A stretch of DNA of 39,996 nucleotides from Candidatus Pacearchaeota archaeon (lineage in GTDB: Archaea > Nanobdellota > Nanobdellia > Pacearchaeales > GW2011-AR1): NCBI GenBank assembly GCA_023144035.1, contig JAGLGM010000006.1, forward strand, positions 1 through 39,996. The letters are read 5' to 3'. Position numbers and translations under genes: made by a program. Below, one piece after another: positions 13,915-39,967 of the stretch; position 1 is the first letter of the stretch; each line of letters opens with the position of its first letter. The notes under the pieces are model-generated. The model ran no database searches, was not told the DNA's origin, and saw nothing but the letters and a program-made list of their open reading frames with translations.

Positions 13915-13998
13915 TTTTGGGTTCAGATAGGTATCTTAAAAAGATTATAATCACTTTTAAAGAGTAACATTTAAATATCTGTTTTTATTATAAGAAAT

Positions 13999-14514
13999 AT
14001 GTTCTTTTCACCAAAAGATAAGGAAATTATGAGTCTTGCTTTAAAAGAGGCGGAAGAAGCAGGAAAACAAGGAAACTTTCCTATAGGGGCTGCTTTAACA
14101 ATAAATGAAAACCTTATTGATGTTGGAAGAAATCAACTTTATACTAAAGGAGATTGGTATTCTCATGCAGAAAATAGATTAATTGAGAAATATTCCAAGT
14201 TAATTCTTGAAGAAATAAAGAAAGGTTCTTCTATTGAGATATATTCTACACTTGAGCCTTGTTTTATGTGTTTTGGAACTTCTCTCTTACATAGAATTCC
14301 AAAGATAACTTTTGGTTGTCCTGATCCTTATGGAGGAGTTGCTAATTTAAATAAGGATAATTTTCCAATTTTTTATAGGGATAGGTGGCCAGAAATAAAA
14401 AGCGGTTTATTTGCAAAAGAAGCTTATAATTTGTTAGTGGATTTTTTTGCTAGTAAAAATACTCCTGAATTTAGAGAAATGTTTAATACCTATAAAAACT
14501 TAAAGATAGAATGA
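13999..14514 (+). CDS. Zinc-dependent nucleoside/base deaminase (CDA fold)
   Basis: 171 residues with the cytidine deaminase fold: FPIGAALTI (27-35), catalytic H56-A57-E58 in SHAENR, and zinc Cys C88 and C91 in EPCFMC. HAE with PCxxC groups it with TadA, guanine deaminase and deoxycytidylate-type enzymes. Glu58 would act as proton shuttle. The tail after residue 110 (PDPYGGVANL) differs from tRNA-editing TadA, so a free base or nucleoside is a likelier substrate. It is the first gene of a four-gene overlapping operon; a TATA box (catttaaatatc) is 26 bases before the ATG. The stop overlaps the next start by 4 bases (ATGA). Confidence 0.85.
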   Translation: MFFSPKDKEIMSLALKEAEEAGKQGNFPIGAALTINENLIDVGRNQLYTKGDWYSHAENRLIEKYSKLILEEIKKGSSIEIYSTLEPCFMCFGTSLLHRIPKITFGCPDPYGGVANLNKDNFPIFYRDRWPEIKSGLFAKEAYNLLVDFFASKNTPEFREMFNTYKNLKIE

Positions 14515-15368
14515 TAAAAATAGATTTACATATGCATTCAAATCATTCGGATGGAGATTTTTCTCCTAAAGAATTAGTAGAGCTTGTTTCTAAGAAAAGT
14601 ATTTCTGCTATGGCAATAACAGATCACGATAAAGCAACAGCAAATAAAGAGGCTGAAGAATATGCAAAAGAAAAAGGAATTGAATATGTTCATGGGATAG
14701 AAATTACCGCAACGCCTCCAGAAGGGGTAAAAGAACTTCACATTATAGGCCTATTCATAGATTCCAAAAATGAAGAGATAAAAAATATTTCAGATAGGCA
14801 TAAAAAATATGCAATTGATACTGCAAAGAAAATAATTGAAAAATTAAACAAATTGGGCTATGAAATTTCTTTTGAAGAATTAGTTGATGAAACCAAAGGA
14901 GATCATTTTGGAAGGCCTTTTATTGCAAATATTTTAATGAAAAAATATCCTGAAAAATTTCAAGAGAGAAACCAGGTATTTGATGCGCTTTTAGGAAAAC
15001 AAGGAAAAGCTTTTGTTTTGCCAAGAGGAACAGAATTAGAAGAAGTTATAAAGATTATTCATGGTGCTGGAGGAATTGCAATTGTTGCTCATCCCTGGTA
15101 TTTAGGAGAAAACATGGAAAAAATATTGGAAGAATTTGTTTCGTTGGGAGGAGATGGCATAGAACTGGATTATTCTCCTAAAGATGCAATTCTAGAAAAT
15201 ACAAAAGATATTCTGAAAGGTTTTGCAAAGAAAAATAATTTAATAATTTCTGGTGGAACAGATTTTCATAAGTTAGAAAAAGAAAAAAAAGAAATTGGTG
15301 ATGAGGGAATTTCTGAGGAAGAATTTCTTAAACTAAAAGAATATCATCAAAAAAATGAAAAAATATGA
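14511..15368 (+). CDS. PHP-domain phosphoesterase (YciV/TrpH-like)
   Basis: 285 residues with all PHP motifs: DLHMHSNHSDG (H7, H9, D14), TDHD (D38, H39), GIEIT (E64), HIIG (H77), AHPWY (H194) and GGTDFH (D251, H253). These bind three metals, and known members hydrolyse phosphates from 3',5'-bisphosphonucleotides or RNA 5' ends. The start overlaps the deaminase gene by 4 bases and its end overlaps the kinase gene by 14, so it should be translated together with both. Another PHP gene lies at 22589, but standing alone. The operon setting suggests a phosphate is removed from a small nucleotide-like compound here. Confidence 0.9.
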   Translation: MIKIDLHMHSNHSDGDFSPKELVELVSKKSISAMAITDHDKATANKEAEEYAKEKGIEYVHGIEITATPPEGVKELHIIGLFIDSKNEEIKNISDRHKKYAIDTAKKIIEKLNKLGYEISFEELVDETKGDHFGRPFIANILMKKYPEKFQERNQVFDALLGKQGKAFVLPRGTELEEVIKIIHGAGGIAIVAHPWYLGENMEKILEEFVSLGGDGIELDYSPKDAILENTKDILKGFAKKNNLIISGGTDFHKLEKEKKEIGDEGISEEEFLKLKEYHQKNEKI

Positions 15369-16572
15369 GTGGATAGGATTAAGAGAAAAAGATAACTTTT
15401 CTTACATCAAAGGAGAAAATCCTATTTATGATACAAATTGCCATAATAGTTTAATCATTTCTAATTTAGAAGAAGGCGTTATAAAAGGGGTAAGCAATCA
15501 TGCTTTAATTAAAAATTCGGGAAAGAATTATTTAATTCCAATAACTAAAATTAATGAAATTATAGACCTTTCAAAAGAAATTTTAAATGAAAGTAAAGTT
15601 TTTTATAAAAAACCAAAATCTATTTTTGAAATGCAAAATCTAAAAGATTTAAGTGAAGACTATATAAAACAAAAACTTGTTGAAAATTATAATTTGGAAA
15701 TTAAAAATTTATTGGAAATAAAAACTAAAAAAGGAAAGAATAGAACTTACAAAATTATTTCTAAAAAAAATAAAGAATTTATGTTAAAGTATCAGGGAAA
15801 AAATTCTGAATTATTTGAATATCAATCTTCTTTTTTGGAAGGGATTTCTTTCTTTCCAAAGATTATTTCAACAATTAATTCCCTCAGGTATATTTCTATC
15901 AATAATTCTATTTATGCTCTTGAAGAATTTGTAGAAGGTAATAAATTTCCTCTTGATATGGAAAATTATTTCAATCTTGTTGGAAAACATTTGGCTTTAA
16001 TGCATAATGAATTTAATCAAAAAAATATTTTAAAAAATAATCTTGAGATTGTTTTAGCTCAAGAAGGGAATTCTTTAAGTGAAAGTAATTTGAATTCAAT
16101 GCAAATTGATTTAAAAATTAATTCCAACAATGAATTTTTCTTAAAAGAAATTGATTCTTTTCCAAAATCTTTGGGTCAAATAGTAAATTCTTTTCCTAAT
16201 CAAATAATTCATGGGGATTTAAACAAATCAAATTTAATCTGGAATGAGAATAATGCAACAATAATTGACTCTGAAACAATTAGATTTTCTCAAAGAATTA
16301 AAGATTTTATTCCGGCGTCTTTATTTGAAGGAAATTTGAATATTCCAAGTTATACTCCAAATTCCCTAAAGAAATTGATAGAATCTTATGATTTTTATTC
16401 AAATCAAAAATTAAGTGAAGCTGAAAAAACTATTCTTCCAAATCTTTTAAAATTTTCTTTAATTAAGTCTTATGTAATTTATGTGCTTAGAAGAAACTTG
16501 AAAGATGAAAAATTCAAAAATAAAATTATACATAATTTAAAACTTATTGGAGGAGAAATAAATGTTCACTAA
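15355..16572 (+). CDS. APH-like (choline/aminoglycoside/homoserine) small-molecule kinase
   Basis: 405 residues. The C-terminal 260 have the APH kinase order: YALEEFVEG hinge, LALMHNEF, catalytic loop IIHGDLNKSNLIW (H286, D288, N293) and metal-binding IIDSE (D305). An N-terminal domain of about 130 residues (EWIGLREKDNFSYIKG ... VSNHALIKNSG) is extra and unrecognised. It may bring the substrate or cover the active site. APH-fold kinases phosphorylate small molecules such as sugars, choline, homoserine or aminoglycosides. It overlaps the PHP gene by 14 bases and the nucleotidyltransferase gene by 11. Resistance is only one option; an operon with deaminase and PHP proteins suggests metabolism. 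Confidence 0.82.
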   Translation: MKKYEWIGLREKDNFSYIKGENPIYDTNCHNSLIISNLEEGVIKGVSNHALIKNSGKNYLIPITKINEIIDLSKEILNESKVFYKKPKSIFEMQNLKDLSEDYIKQKLVENYNLEIKNLLEIKTKKGKNRTYKIISKKNKEFMLKYQGKNSELFEYQSSFLEGISFFPKIISTINSLRYISINNSIYALEEFVEGNKFPLDMENYFNLVGKHLALMHNEFNQKNILKNNLEIVLAQEGNSLSESNLNSMQIDLKINSNNEFFLKEIDSFPKSLGQIVNSFPNQIIHGDLNKSNLIWNENNATIIDSETIRFSQRIKDFIPASLFEGNLNIPSYTPNSLKKLIESYDFYSNQKLSEAEKTILPNLLKFSLIKSYVIYVLRRNLKDEKFKNKIIHNLKLIGGEINVH

Positions 16573-17389
16573 AATTCCTTTTAAGATTAATCATCCTTTG
16601 CAAATTTTTCACTCTATAAAAGAAATAAATTTTAGAGATAAAAGTGAGAGAACTGAATTATTTAAGAGAAACATTTATTATTATTTATTTGGAGAACAAA
16701 AAAATAAAATTCTTGAGAAAAAACATCAACTTTTTTTGGATTTGAGTCAAAAAGCTTTAGACTATATGAAAACAAAATATTCTGATTTAGAAGTATCAAA
16801 TCTCTCCTTATTTGGATCTTCTTCTGTATTGGAGAATCCTGGAGATTATGATTTTTTAGCAATTACAAACGGAGATATCTTTTTACTTGATGAATTTACT
16901 TTAAATTTAAATGGAAATCCTTTTCAAATAGGAATTTCCATAAAGGGTGTCGATAATTATATTGATGGTTTTAAAAAGAAAGATAATAGTATTCAAAGCA
17001 AAAAATTAGAACAAATAGTTGATAGAACTGCAATATCTTTGTTTAGAAGACACATACCTCTTTTTGGAAAAGATTTTATAAATAATGAACAAGAATTTTT
17101 GAATAATGCTTATGCACAGGTTTCAGATTTATTAAATAATTCATATGAATTATTCTATTTGAAACAAGATAATTTTTTTATTTCAGAAGAAAAAAGGGCA
17201 AAAAAAATGTTAACAAGATGCTATGAAGCTACTTCTTATTTTGAAGCAGTTGATTCAGATAAAAGAATACAAGAAATTAGAGAGGAAATATATTTTACAT
17301 TGAAAAATAAAATTGATCTTGAAAAAAGCAAGAATATATTTGAAAGGTTTGGAGAACTATATGAGAAAAAGATTTCAAAATTAATATAA
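16562..17389 (+). CDS. Polymerase beta-fold nucleotidyltransferase
   Basis: 275 residues. The signature is LSLFGSSSVLENPGDYDFLA: G85-S86 followed by D95 and D97, the GS...DxD of this fold. These would bind metal and transfer a nucleotide to a small molecule or protein. The rest is mostly helical. A strong Shine-Dalgarno (ggaggag, 16549-16555) lies inside the preceding kinase gene, and the genes overlap by 11 bases, so the start is well placed. It closes the four-gene operon. A kinase next to an NTase is a common logic for making an activated nucleotide-linked compound, but the product here is unknown. Confidence 0.78.
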   Translation: MFTKIPFKINHPLQIFHSIKEINFRDKSERTELFKRNIYYYLFGEQKNKILEKKHQLFLDLSQKALDYMKTKYSDLEVSNLSLFGSSSVLENPGDYDFLAITNGDIFLLDEFTLNLNGNPFQIGISIKGVDNYIDGFKKKDNSIQSKKLEQIVDRTAISLFRRHIPLFGKDFINNEQEFLNNAYAQVSDLLNNSYELFYLKQDNFFISEEKRAKKMLTRCYEATSYFEAVDSDKRIQEIREEIYFTLKNKIDLEKSKNIFERFGELYEKKISKLI

Positions 17390-20412: not shown

Positions 20413-20460
20413 TAGTAACATAATGGAAAAGTTTATAAATAGAGTAATTCTTTGTTTTTT

Positions 20461-21582
20461 ATGAGATTAAAAACTATTGATGAAAAAATAATTACTGAAA
20501 GATTATCAAAATTTGAAGGAAGACATCTTAGGCTTTTAAATAGGTTAGCAACTAAAAGTTTAAAGGAGAAAATTAGTTCTAAAAATGCTTTAAAGAATGT
20601 TAATAATGAACTTAAAAAATATTTTGAATCTGAGAATAGATTAATAAAAGGTGTAGCTTCTTCTATTTATTCAAAATTAAATGGAACTATAAAATACACT
20701 AGATTTAATGGAGCTAATTTGGGGCTAGTTGTGGAAAAAGATGATGTTAACACAAATTATAGAATAAAAGATCTAAATTCATTTATGGAAAATTCTGGAA
20801 TTTACAATTCAGTTATCTTCAGAAATCAAAAAATAAATAATTCAATTGTGGCATATGAGGCTACAATAAATAATTCAATGGTTGCGCATAATTCTGCAAT
20901 AAAGAATAATTCAATGGTTGCAAATAATGCTATAATAGATAATTCAATGGTTGCAAATAATGCTATAATAGATAATTCAATGGTTGCAAATAATGCTATA
21001 ATAGATAATTCAATGGTTGCAAATAATGCTACAATGAAGAATAATTCAATGGTTGCAAATAATTCTGCAATAAAGAATAATTCAATGGTTGCAAATGATT
21101 CTGCAATAAAGAATAATTCAAAGGTTGCATATGAGGCTACAATAAATAATTCAATGGTTGCAAATGAGGCTACAATAGATAGTTCAAAGGTTGCAAATAA
21201 TTCTACAATAGATAGTTCAAAGGTTGCAAATAATTCTACAATAGATAGTTCAAAGGTTGCATATAATGCTACAATAAATAATTCAATGGTTGCAAATGAG
21301 GCTACAATAAATAATTCAGAGGTTGCAAATAATTCTACAATAGATAGTTCAAATGTTGCACATAGTTCTACAATAAATAATTCAGAGGTTGCAAAGGATG
21401 CTACAATAAAGGATTCAAATGTTGCATATGAGGCTACAATAGATAATTCAATGGTTGCATATAATACTACAATAGATGATTCAAATGTTGCAGAGGGTGC
21501 TAAGGTTAGAAATTCTTATATTGGAGAAGGTGCAACAAAAGATTCTAAATCAAGAATTGCAAGAAACATAACTTATTTTTAG
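20461..21582 (+). CDS. Protein with twenty tandem 11-12-residue repeats (possible beta-solenoid)
   Basis: 373 residues. A TATA box 27 bases upstream supports the ATG at 20461. The first 70 residues are helical and basic (EKIITERLSKFEGRHLRLLNR). Residues 126-349 are twenty tandem repeats with consensus NNSxVAxNATI (16 of 11 and 4 of 12 residues), then RNSYIGEGA and a short end. The regular S-x-V-A and T-I positions suggest one beta strand pair per coil, as in narrow beta-solenoids. No signal peptide or membrane segment is visible, so it may be cytoplasmic. I do not recognise the family. Units vary at fixed positions (M, K, E or N after S), which may form a binding face. Confidence 0.8.
   Translation: MRLKTIDEKIITERLSKFEGRHLRLLNRLATKSLKEKISSKNALKNVNNELKKYFESENRLIKGVASSIYSKLNGTIKYTRFNGANLGLVVEKDDVNTNYRIKDLNSFMENSGIYNSVIFRNQKINNSIVAYEATINNSMVAHNSAIKNNSMVANNAIIDNSMVANNAIIDNSMVANNAIIDNSMVANNATMKNNSMVANNSAIKNNSMVANDSAIKNNSKVAYEATINNSMVANEATIDSSKVANNSTIDSSKVANNSTIDSSKVAYNATINNSMVANEATINNSEVANNSTIDSSNVAHSSTINNSEVAKDATIKDSNVAYEATIDNSMVAYNTTIDDSNVAEGAKVRNSYIGEGATKDSKSRIARNITYF
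20836..21507 (+). repeat. 33-36 bp tandem DNA repeat inside a coding gene
   Basis: Twenty units fill exactly 672 bases. Three successive units around 20938-21036 are identical 33-mers (aattcaatggttgcaaataa...). The 36-base units differ by an added AAG codon. Such near-identity should let the array expand or shrink by slippage or recombination in steps that keep the frame. Confidence 0.9.
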
Positions 21583-21705: not shown

Positions 21706-22557
21706 ATGAGAGTTATTAAAAGGGAAAAAGGAAAAAAAGAGTATTACTATTTACAACATTCATTTAGAAAAGGAGAAAAAGTAATTACAAGAGAAAAATA
21801 TCTTGGATTAAAGATTCCTAAAAATATTGATGAAATAAAAGGAGAGTTTAGTAGAAAGTTAAAAAAAGATCTTTATAAAAAGTTAGAAAGAATAAAAACA
21901 CATTTTCAGAAAGAATGGAAAAAACTCCCAAAATCAATTCAAGAAAAAGAAAAAGAAGAGATTTCTATAGCTTTTACATATAATTCAAATGCTCTTGAAG
22001 GTTCAACAATTACTCTGCATGAAGTAAGAGAAATAATTCAAGACAAAATTGCTCCAAATAAGCCTATTAGAGATATAAAAGAAACAGAAATGCATAATAA
22101 AGTTCTTTTAGAAATTTTAAAAGAAAAAGAAAAAATTAGTAATAAGTTAATATTAGGGTGGCATAATGAAATTTTTGGAGAAACTAAATCAGACATGGCA
22201 GGAAAATATAGAAATTATCTTGTAAGAGTTGGACAATATGTTGCTCCTCATTGGAATACAATTAGATTAACTATGAACCAAATCATAAATTTTACTAATA
22301 AATCAAATTTAAATCCTGTTGAATTAGCTGCAAGAGTTCATTATAGGTTTGAGATTATCCATCCTTTTGGAGATGGCAATGGCAGAATTGGAAGATTATT
22401 AATGAATCATATTCTTTGGCATGCAGGTTATCCAATGCTTATTATTGAATACAAAAAAAGAAAGTCATATTATGCTGCATTCCCAAAAGGTCAGGAAGCT
22501 TTTGTGGATTATTTTTTAAGAAGATATCTTGCTGTTCATAAAAAAAGGTTGAAATAA
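21706..22557 (+). CDS. Fic-family protein (probable AMPylase) with inhibitory motif
   Basis: 283 residues. The catalytic motif HPFGDGNGRIGR (219-230) is complete and an upstream YNSNALEGSTITL carries the SxxxEG inhibitory motif. The N-terminus (MRVIKREKGKKEYYYLQHS) matches the Fic gene at 6189, so the two are paralogues of one subfamily with a short N-terminal domain. A TATA box about 27 bases upstream predicts a leaderless message. No DNA-binding domain is fused, unlike the third Fic gene at 31070. The target is unknown. Confidence 0.92.
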   Translation: MRVIKREKGKKEYYYLQHSFRKGEKVITREKYLGLKIPKNIDEIKGEFSRKLKKDLYKKLERIKTHFQKEWKKLPKSIQEKEKEEISIAFTYNSNALEGSTITLHEVREIIQDKIAPNKPIRDIKETEMHNKVLLEILKEKEKISNKLILGWHNEIFGETKSDMAGKYRNYLVRVGQYVAPHWNTIRLTMNQIINFTNKSNLNPVELAARVHYRFEIIHPFGDGNGRIGRLLMNHILWHAGYPMLIIEYKKRKSYYAAFPKGQEAFVDYFLRRYLAVHKKRLK

Positions 22558-22568
22558 TTAAATTTCAC

Positions 22569-22610
22569 CAATCATCTCGGCGTGGGAGTTAATTCTTAAA
22601 GACTCTTTTA
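22569..22610 (+). repeat. Dispersed intergenic element, copy 11
   Basis: Core CTCGGCGTGGGAGTT then aattcttaaagactctttta, between the convergent Fic and PHP genes. Its right half overlaps the end of the - strand PHP gene, including that stop codon (22589-22591), as copies 4 and 7 do for their neighbours. Confidence 0.65.
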
Positions 22611-23464
22611 ATCTCTTCTAATTCTTTTTGAGTTATCCCAAAGTCTCCGGGCATGATTGATTTAAGATTGGCGTATGTTTTTAAGGGAAAGTGGCTATCA
22701 GATCCTCCAGAAATAGGAATTTGCATTTTTTTTAGTTTCTTTCTAATTCCTTTTTCTAATTCTTTATTTGATTCAGTTCCACCATAACCATTTTCATGAT
22801 ATGCATAAGACGCTTCTATTGCATCAATTCCGTGTTTATGAAACAACTTAAAATATTCTTCTCTTGTTGATTCTGGAGTCATAAACGGATGTGCCCAAAT
22901 AGCAAAGCCTCCAGCATCATGAATTAATTTGATTATTTTTATTGGCGAAAGTTTAGAAATTCCTTGTCCATCTTTAACATAGTATGTTTTATTTTGATAA
23001 TGTTTTCTTGCCTCTGCCCAGGAAGGAAATAGTTTGAGTTTTTCTGCAAGATATTTTAATACAAATAACTTTTGAGGATTTTTTTTATTATAAAATTTTT
23101 CGATTTTATTATAACTTATATCAATTCCTTCTTTTTTTAATCCATCAACTAATCTTTTTGATGCAGAAATATAATCTTTTTTCATCTTATTGCGTCTCTT
23201 TTCAATAAATTCTCGATCTTTCTTTTTTATTTTCATGTTATATCCAATAATGTGTGCTTTATCACAAGAAAATTCAATTCCCAAAGCAAGCTGCAAACCT
23301 TTTTTCTTAGCATATTTATATAAACTTTCATCAGGAAAGGTATCATGGTCACAAATACCAAGTCCCTTAACTCCATTTTTTATAGCGAGATCTATTAATT
23401 TTTTCCCGCTTATTGCTCCATCTGGTGAAAGAGAAGTATGATTGTGTAAATCATAAGGTTTCAT
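22589..23464 (-). CDS. PHP-domain phosphoesterase (second copy, standalone)
   Basis: 291 residues with PHP motifs DLHNHTSLSPDG (H7, H9), GICDHDTF, GIEFSCD, HIIGYN, IWAHPFM and SGGSDSHF. The same metal-binding set as the gene at 14511 is present, with differences such as CDHD for TDHD and GGSDSH for GGTDFH. Substrates of this group include nucleotides and RNA ends. It is transcribed alone from the region shared with the membrane protein gene at 23570. Its C-terminus falls in a dispersed element. Confidence 0.9.
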   Translation of the reverse strand: MKPYDLHNHTSLSPDGAISGKKLIDLAIKNGVKGLGICDHDTFPDESLYKYAKKKGLQLALGIEFSCDKAHIIGYNMKIKKKDREFIEKRRNKMKKDYISASKRLVDGLKKEGIDISYNKIEKFYNKKNPQKLFVLKYLAEKLKLFPSWAEARKHYQNKTYYVKDGQGISKLSPIKIIKLIHDAGGFAIWAHPFMTPESTREEYFKLFHKHGIDAIEASYAYHENGYGGTESNKELEKGIRKKLKKMQIPISGGSDSHFPLKTYANLKSIMPGDFGITQKELEEIKRVFKN

Positions 23465-30653: not shown

Positions 30654-30813
30654 TCCCTGCGCCCAGATTCGAACTGGGGATCTCCCGGGTTCTATTGAAC
30701 ATTTTGGCTTTTCAGGTTTCACAGTTATCCTTTGTGGAATCTCCACCCTAGTTTTGGTTGTTATACCATATATTTAACTACAGCCAGGCGCTCTACCACT
30801 GAGCCACGCAGGG
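30654..30813 (-). tRNA. tRNA-Tyr (GUA) with an 88-base intron
   Basis: On the - strand the acceptor CCCTGCG pairs fully with CGCAGGG. The D arm is GCTC/GAGC, the T arm CCCAG-TTCGAAT-CTGGG, and the anticodon stem CCTGG/CCGGG. Exon 1 (30778-30813) ends CTGTAG, giving anticodon GUA; exon 2 is 30654-30689. The intron 30690-30777 sits between positions 37 and 38, the usual archaeal place. C1-G72 is the archaeal tRNA-Tyr identity pair, and the discriminator base is A. CCA is not encoded. Confidence 0.93.
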
Positions 30814-39836: not shown

Positions 39837-39967
39837 TGCGCGGACCGGGAGTTGAACCCGGGTCACAACGTTTTTGCTCCTTCTTATTTCTAGGAAGGTA
39901 GTGCGGTAGGAAAAATAGGTTTCCTTCGCTTGGCAACGTCGTATACTGGCCACTATACTACCCACGC
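39837..39967 (-). tRNA. tRNA-Gly (GCC) with a 59-base intron
   Basis: On the - strand acceptor GCGTGGG pairs with TCCGCGC, the D arm is GTAT/GTAT, the T arm CCGGG-TTCAACT-CCCGG and the anticodon stem CGACG/CGTTG. The loop TTGCCAA gives anticodon GCC. Exon 1 is 39931-39967, exon 2 is 39837-39871, and the intron 39872-39930 sits after position 37. The discriminator is A. The reading frames through it are not genes. Confidence 0.92.

Follow-up and report, generated by a model that had tools for sequence, protein, structure and literature searches.

An APH-fold kinase and a nucleotidyltransferase (NTase) of a new family form the invariant core of a gene cassette in Nanoarchaeota; the two were found only together, and the cassette moves horizontally. 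A phosphatase adjoined all eight kinase-NTase pairs (8/8), belonging to the PHP family at four loci, the histidine phosphatases at three, and the HAD family at one. Because unrelated folds swap in this position, it is the phosphate-removing chemistry that is kept and not the protein, an unusually clear clue to function that marks a chemical step that cannot be lost. We tentatively propose, with a probability of about 0.4, that the cassette encodes a mobile phosphatase-kinase-NTase pathway whose substrate would be a small molecule resembling a nucleoside or a sugar, with a deaminase added in the variant analyzed here. The superfamilies themselves are already known. No description of the NTase family, its pairing with the kinase, or the interchangeable phosphatase appeared in the papers and family libraries covered by our limited search. 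The first-pass annotation had likewise named no described system with this gene set, and none was found in a limited targeted search of the open-access literature. With the phosphatase slot, the new NTase family can be approached as a reaction of two or three enzymes that is open to test.

Gene arrangement of the cassette

The window, a stretch of 39,996 nt from a Nanoarchaeota genome of 776 kb, contained four intact, ATG-initiated ORFs on the forward strand. This gene set and order (type A: deaminase-PHP-kinase-NTase) also occurred in the genomes G167, G170, and G097, so that the arrangement spans four genera with unrelated flanks. The features of the window cassette were as follows:

13967..13978 (+), archaeal BRE/TATA-like promoter element, ACATTTAAATAT; the deaminase genes of G170 and G097 are preceded by this motif at an equivalent position
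13999..14514 (+), TadA-like zinc deaminase, 171 aa (Pfam PF00383, 1.2e-14)
14511..15368 (+), PHP phosphoesterase, 285 aa, RNase AM / nucleoside-3',5'-bisphosphate phosphatase-like (PF02811, 7e-13)
15355..16572 (+), APH/CotS-like kinase, 405 aa (PF01636, 2e-4; CotS-like, 2.9e-12)
16562..17389 (+), new-family pol-beta-type NTase, 275 aa, with a C-terminal helical domain (AlphaFold model, Foldseek, alignment of eight sequences)

Successive ORFs overlapped by 4, 14, and 11 nt, at exactly the coordinates given by the first-pass annotation, which had read them as one translated unit under one promoter. Comparison with the relatives bore this out: the overlaps were 4/14/11 in G170, 4/14/26 in G097, and -36/-31/17 in G167, the first two overlaps of the window being exact in G170 and G097, and the promoter element conserved in these two genomes was weaker or degenerate in G167. 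In the stretch GTAAC..TTTAAATA, TTTAAATA begins 29 nt upstream of the first (deaminase) ATG, a spacing from which a single, probably leaderless transcript is predicted. The cassette is not a chance arrangement, since other genera share its gene order and overlaps and dN/dS values of 0.11-0.42 indicate purifying selection on all four genes, weakest on the kinase. Scattered orthologues with no shared neighborhood were also looked for and were not found. A link to transport or defense genes, raised in the same annotation, did not emerge: no conserved transport, regulator, or defense gene was present in the flanks, which differed at every locus. In G170, a C5 DNA methylase gene lies about 2.6 kb from the cassette and is not common to the other loci.

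Distribution of the core and the phosphatase slot

All 200 genomes of the order and 371 genomes sampled across the phylum were searched. The order contained nine credible members of the NTase family, one of them truncated at the end of a contig, and the phylum sample yielded only generic NTases and no further members. Weak matches in G240, G352, and G427 were rejected as generic NTases without a kinase, and a match in G080 as spurious (57 residues). Strong kinase orthologues occurred in exactly those genomes that carry an intact NTase (8/8; P about 4e-13 when genomes are treated as independent). The truncated NTase is that of G096 (L021, G096:C18, 1-725), where it is overlapped by a DUF7768 gene at the contig end; the kinase was not found in this genome, which is 76% complete. 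Deaminase and PHP were missing from half of the loci and, unlike the kinase and NTase, have relatives outside the cassette. The gene set that the first-pass annotation had read as a short pathway was thus supported as a kinase-NTase core with a phosphatase, but not as an indivisible four-gene pathway.

At three loci (G028, G112, and G187), the NTase comes first and the kinase last, and between them lies a histidine phosphatase gene in the opposite orientation. The histidine phosphatase of the cassette was the only one detected in the G028 and G187 genomes, and its placement there is therefore not due to abundance. In G111, the genes after a HAD phosphatase-kinase pair encode, in order, a TIM barrel of the AP_endonuc_2 type, a GT4 glycosyltransferase, and an NTase-methyltransferase fusion; both the HAD link and the APH kinase of G111 come from this single locus, which is split over two contig ends. 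The NTase-methyltransferase fusion is co-directional with the genes of the GT4 glycosyltransferase and the AP_endonuc_2-type isomerase, and these partners point to a glycoside-like substrate. The three phosphatase families are typical of small-molecule phosphatases (alpha-ribazole-phosphatase-like, glucose-1-phosphatase/nucleotidase-like).

The TIM-barrel isomerase, which is also found beside a deaminase in G166, was considered as a further cassette partner and rejected, as no consistent link was seen in four more loci. The G111 barrel (L019, 84-788) is without about 29 mid-barrel residues that are present in the G166 relative and may therefore be inactive.

Horizontal transfer

Copies in G028 and G112 were 89% (NTase), 86% (kinase), and 92% (phosphatase) identical, with dS of about 0.1-0.2, whereas ribosomal protein L1 of these two genomes, which belong to different genera, was 49% identical. 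The NTase gene was AT-rich at all loci, with a GC content of 24-27% within regions of 28-42%. The high identity of the copies against that of L1, together with the AT-rich NTase, shows that the cassette moves horizontally in Nanoarchaeota. No copy was detected in viral contigs searched with the NTase and kinase profiles or in plasmids searched with the NTase. The genomes of DPANN archaea are very small, and these organisms are thought to live at the expense of hosts. Since such tiny genomes keep the cassette under selection and pass it between genera, this accessory 3.4-kb element must confer some benefit on its carriers.

Predicted enzymes of the cassette

The NTase of the window gave no Pfam match on its own, and its relatives matched PF18765 (Polbeta) weakly. 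Its AlphaFold model (pLDDT 89) was closest in Foldseek to the aminoglycoside NTase ANT(4')-IIb (4ebj; E 3.8e-4, probability 1.00, TM-score 0.28), followed by HalB and AadA. The TM-scores were low (0.22-0.37), and the fold therefore gives no reading of the substrate class. With ANT(4')-IIb and AadA/ANT(3'') the protein shares a pol-beta domain, a C-terminal helical domain, and the GS..DxD motif, present as FGS(84-86)...D95xD97 and invariant in the eight aligned sequences. In contrast to these enzymes, it is archaeal, is always paired with a kinase, and showed no profile similarity to AadA past the motif. In the eight sequences and the model, no conserved acid was found on strand 119-129, which follows the hairpin and is the expected site of the third catalytic carboxylate; the invariant residues of this strand are G124, S126, and K128. 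The earlier statement that all four active sites are intact could therefore not be established. In the absence of this acid, the NTase would either work non-canonically, with a base supplied by its C-terminal domain, or not act as a catalyst of the usual kind.

The kinase combines an N-terminal region of about 110 aa, with no counterpart elsewhere in this analysis, and an APH/CotS-like catalytic half that scored just below the PF01636 gathering threshold (21.7 vs 23.2 bits). The catalytic [HN]GDxNxxN motif and the downstream Asp are present, with K145, G-D288-x-N-x-x-N293, and D305 invariant in the alignment; the G167 protein (L003) has NGD for HGD and retains the catalytic Asp. Its structure model was poor (pLDDT 54).

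The PHP protein best matched the NCBIfam families NF041577 (5.5e-45) and NF047791 (3.9e-42) of 3',5'-nucleoside-bisphosphate phosphatase / RNase RNM, and its relatives in the PDB are 9etk, 7ug9, and 2yb1. It resembles RNase AM / 3',5'-nucleoside-bisphosphate phosphatase (YciV/CV1693) over its full length and has all metal ligand motifs, which were invariant in the alignment; it differs in scoring well under the equivalog cut-offs (153.7 vs 400 and 144.4 vs 375 bits) and in lying in an operon with a kinase and an NTase. A PHP 74% identical to the cassette copy stands alone in G180. In the window, a second, distant PHP (22589-23464) lies 5 kb from the cassette and is the only other match in the genome to the cassette PHP profile at E <= 1e-20.

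The deaminase has the full-length fold of the TadA / tRNA adenosine deaminase family and intact zinc and proton-shuttle motifs, HAE (56-58) and PCxxC (87-91), but did not reach the TadA equivalog cut-off (57 vs 150 bits). Its nearest solved structures were tRNA adenosine deaminases, followed by guanosine/cytosine deaminases. It forms a cassette-specific branch within a wider Nanoarchaeota deaminase family, its orthologues being confined to the four type-A loci and paralogues occurring elsewhere. In many Nanoarchaeota, a TadA-like paralogue adjoins a LemA gene and/or a phosphoenolpyruvate-synthase-like gene (L104, L108-L115). A row of NTase-like, B12-radical SAM, nucleotide-kinase-like, and GHMP-kinase-like genes, named from their sequence starts only, lies close to a cassette-deaminase relative in G166 (L102, G166:C52, 3-3522).

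Functional interpretation

In the pathway that we propose, the phosphatase, with the deaminase where present, would turn an available phosphorylated nucleoside- or sugar-like metabolite into a free hydroxylated acceptor. The kinase would then phosphorylate one hydroxyl of this acceptor and the NTase would place a nucleotidyl group on another, so that the product would be a small molecule with two tags. We infer the order of these steps, the small-molecule target, the substrate class, and the activity of the NTase. This reading is favored because metabolic phosphatases interchange in the slot, the nearest folds of the NTase are small-molecule enzymes, and the G111 partners are a glycosyltransferase, an isomerase, and a methyltransferase. 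Against it count the low TM-scores and absent third carboxylate of the NTase, the lack of a conserved transporter or regulator in the flanks, and the resemblance of PHP and deaminase to enzymes that also act on RNA. Synthesis of a nucleotide-linked small molecule, as first suggested for this locus, is thus plausible, but RNA modification or a kinase-controlled toxic NTase fits some of the facts equally.

Archaeal kinases that phosphorylate RNA exist, and the cassette could be a set for RNA or tRNA modification or repair in which editing would fall to the deaminase, trimming of 5' ends or removal of pNp to PHP, RNA phosphorylation to a Bud32/ArkI-like kinase, and nucleotide addition to the NTase. 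The structural neighbors of the deaminase and the similarity of PHP to RNase AM, a 5'-3' exonuclease (PMC9410882), agree with this, as does a distant PHP-NUDIX-histidine phosphatase cluster in G106 (L105, G106:C7, 2266-5578) that adjoins a gene for RlaP, of an RNA-repair pol-beta family. Like RlaP and other RNA-repair pol-beta NTases, the cassette NTase lies near phosphatases and kinases; it belongs to a different family, however, and the cassette encodes neither an RNA ligase nor an RNA-binding domain. Half of the loci have a small-molecule-type phosphatase in place of deaminase and PHP, and the glycosyltransferase and isomerase of G111 would be left unexplained. An apparent A34 tRNA 144 nt upstream of the G167 cassette, called as tRNA-Ile(AAU) and taken up as a possible TadA substrate, proved to be an intron-bearing tRNA-Arg(UCU) mis-called by ARAGORN. 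We consider an RNA function unlikely.

A toxin-antitoxin-like switch, in which a growth-arresting NTase is silenced when the kinase phosphorylates it and is reset by the phosphatase, would also suit several features of the cassette: the kinase and NTase are strictly paired, its distribution is sporadic, its GC content is low, it is transferred horizontally, and the kinase evolves fastest. An NTase without the classic third carboxylate is also reminiscent of DUF1814/AbiEii-type toxins. A precedent is the type VII system TakA-TglT (MenA3-MenT3), where a kinase antitoxin phosphorylates the adjacent NTase toxin and for which the authors postulate a missing phosphatase (PMC7205606); its mobile pattern is also similar. 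The cassette differs in several respects: TakA is a COG5340/AbiEi-type protein and not an APH-fold kinase, the cassette NTase has P or N at position 93, two residues ahead of the first catalytic Asp, where TglT has the serine S78, and further metabolic enzymes are present. PHP, alpha-ribazole-type, and HAD enzymes are atypical as protein phosphatases, and the deaminase would have no role. PADLOC defense models matched neither deaminase, kinase, nor NTase, and PHP gave weak matches only. Such a switch seems unlikely to us. We are slightly more doubtful still of a mobile three-part switch, an archaeal conflict system in which the APH-fold kinase and the exchangeable phosphatase gate a growth-controlling NTase or its product; if true, its folds and its own phosphatase would set it apart from the type VII pairs known so far.

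Detoxification or self-protection, with APH- and ANT-like enzymes inactivating an aminoglycoside-like compound by phosphorylation and nucleotidylation, would suit a mobile, accessory cassette whose two core folds are those of aminoglycoside-modifying enzymes, but it is very unlikely, as resistance enzymes usually occur singly, neither the obligatory kinase-NTase pairing nor the constant phosphatase would be explained, and the NTase has neither AadA profile similarity outside GS..DxD nor a plasmid relative.

Other features of the window

Downstream of the cassette, an ORF of 376 aa (20452-21582) consists mostly of near-identical short repeats (NNSMVANNATID...) and likely forms a beta-solenoid. 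It is followed by a gene for a protein with a Fic/DOC domain (21706-22557; PF02661, 3.6e-21). Two tRNA genes on the reverse strand (30654-30813 and 39837-39967) carry long anticodon-loop insertions (introns) and were found by Rfam and missed by ARAGORN.
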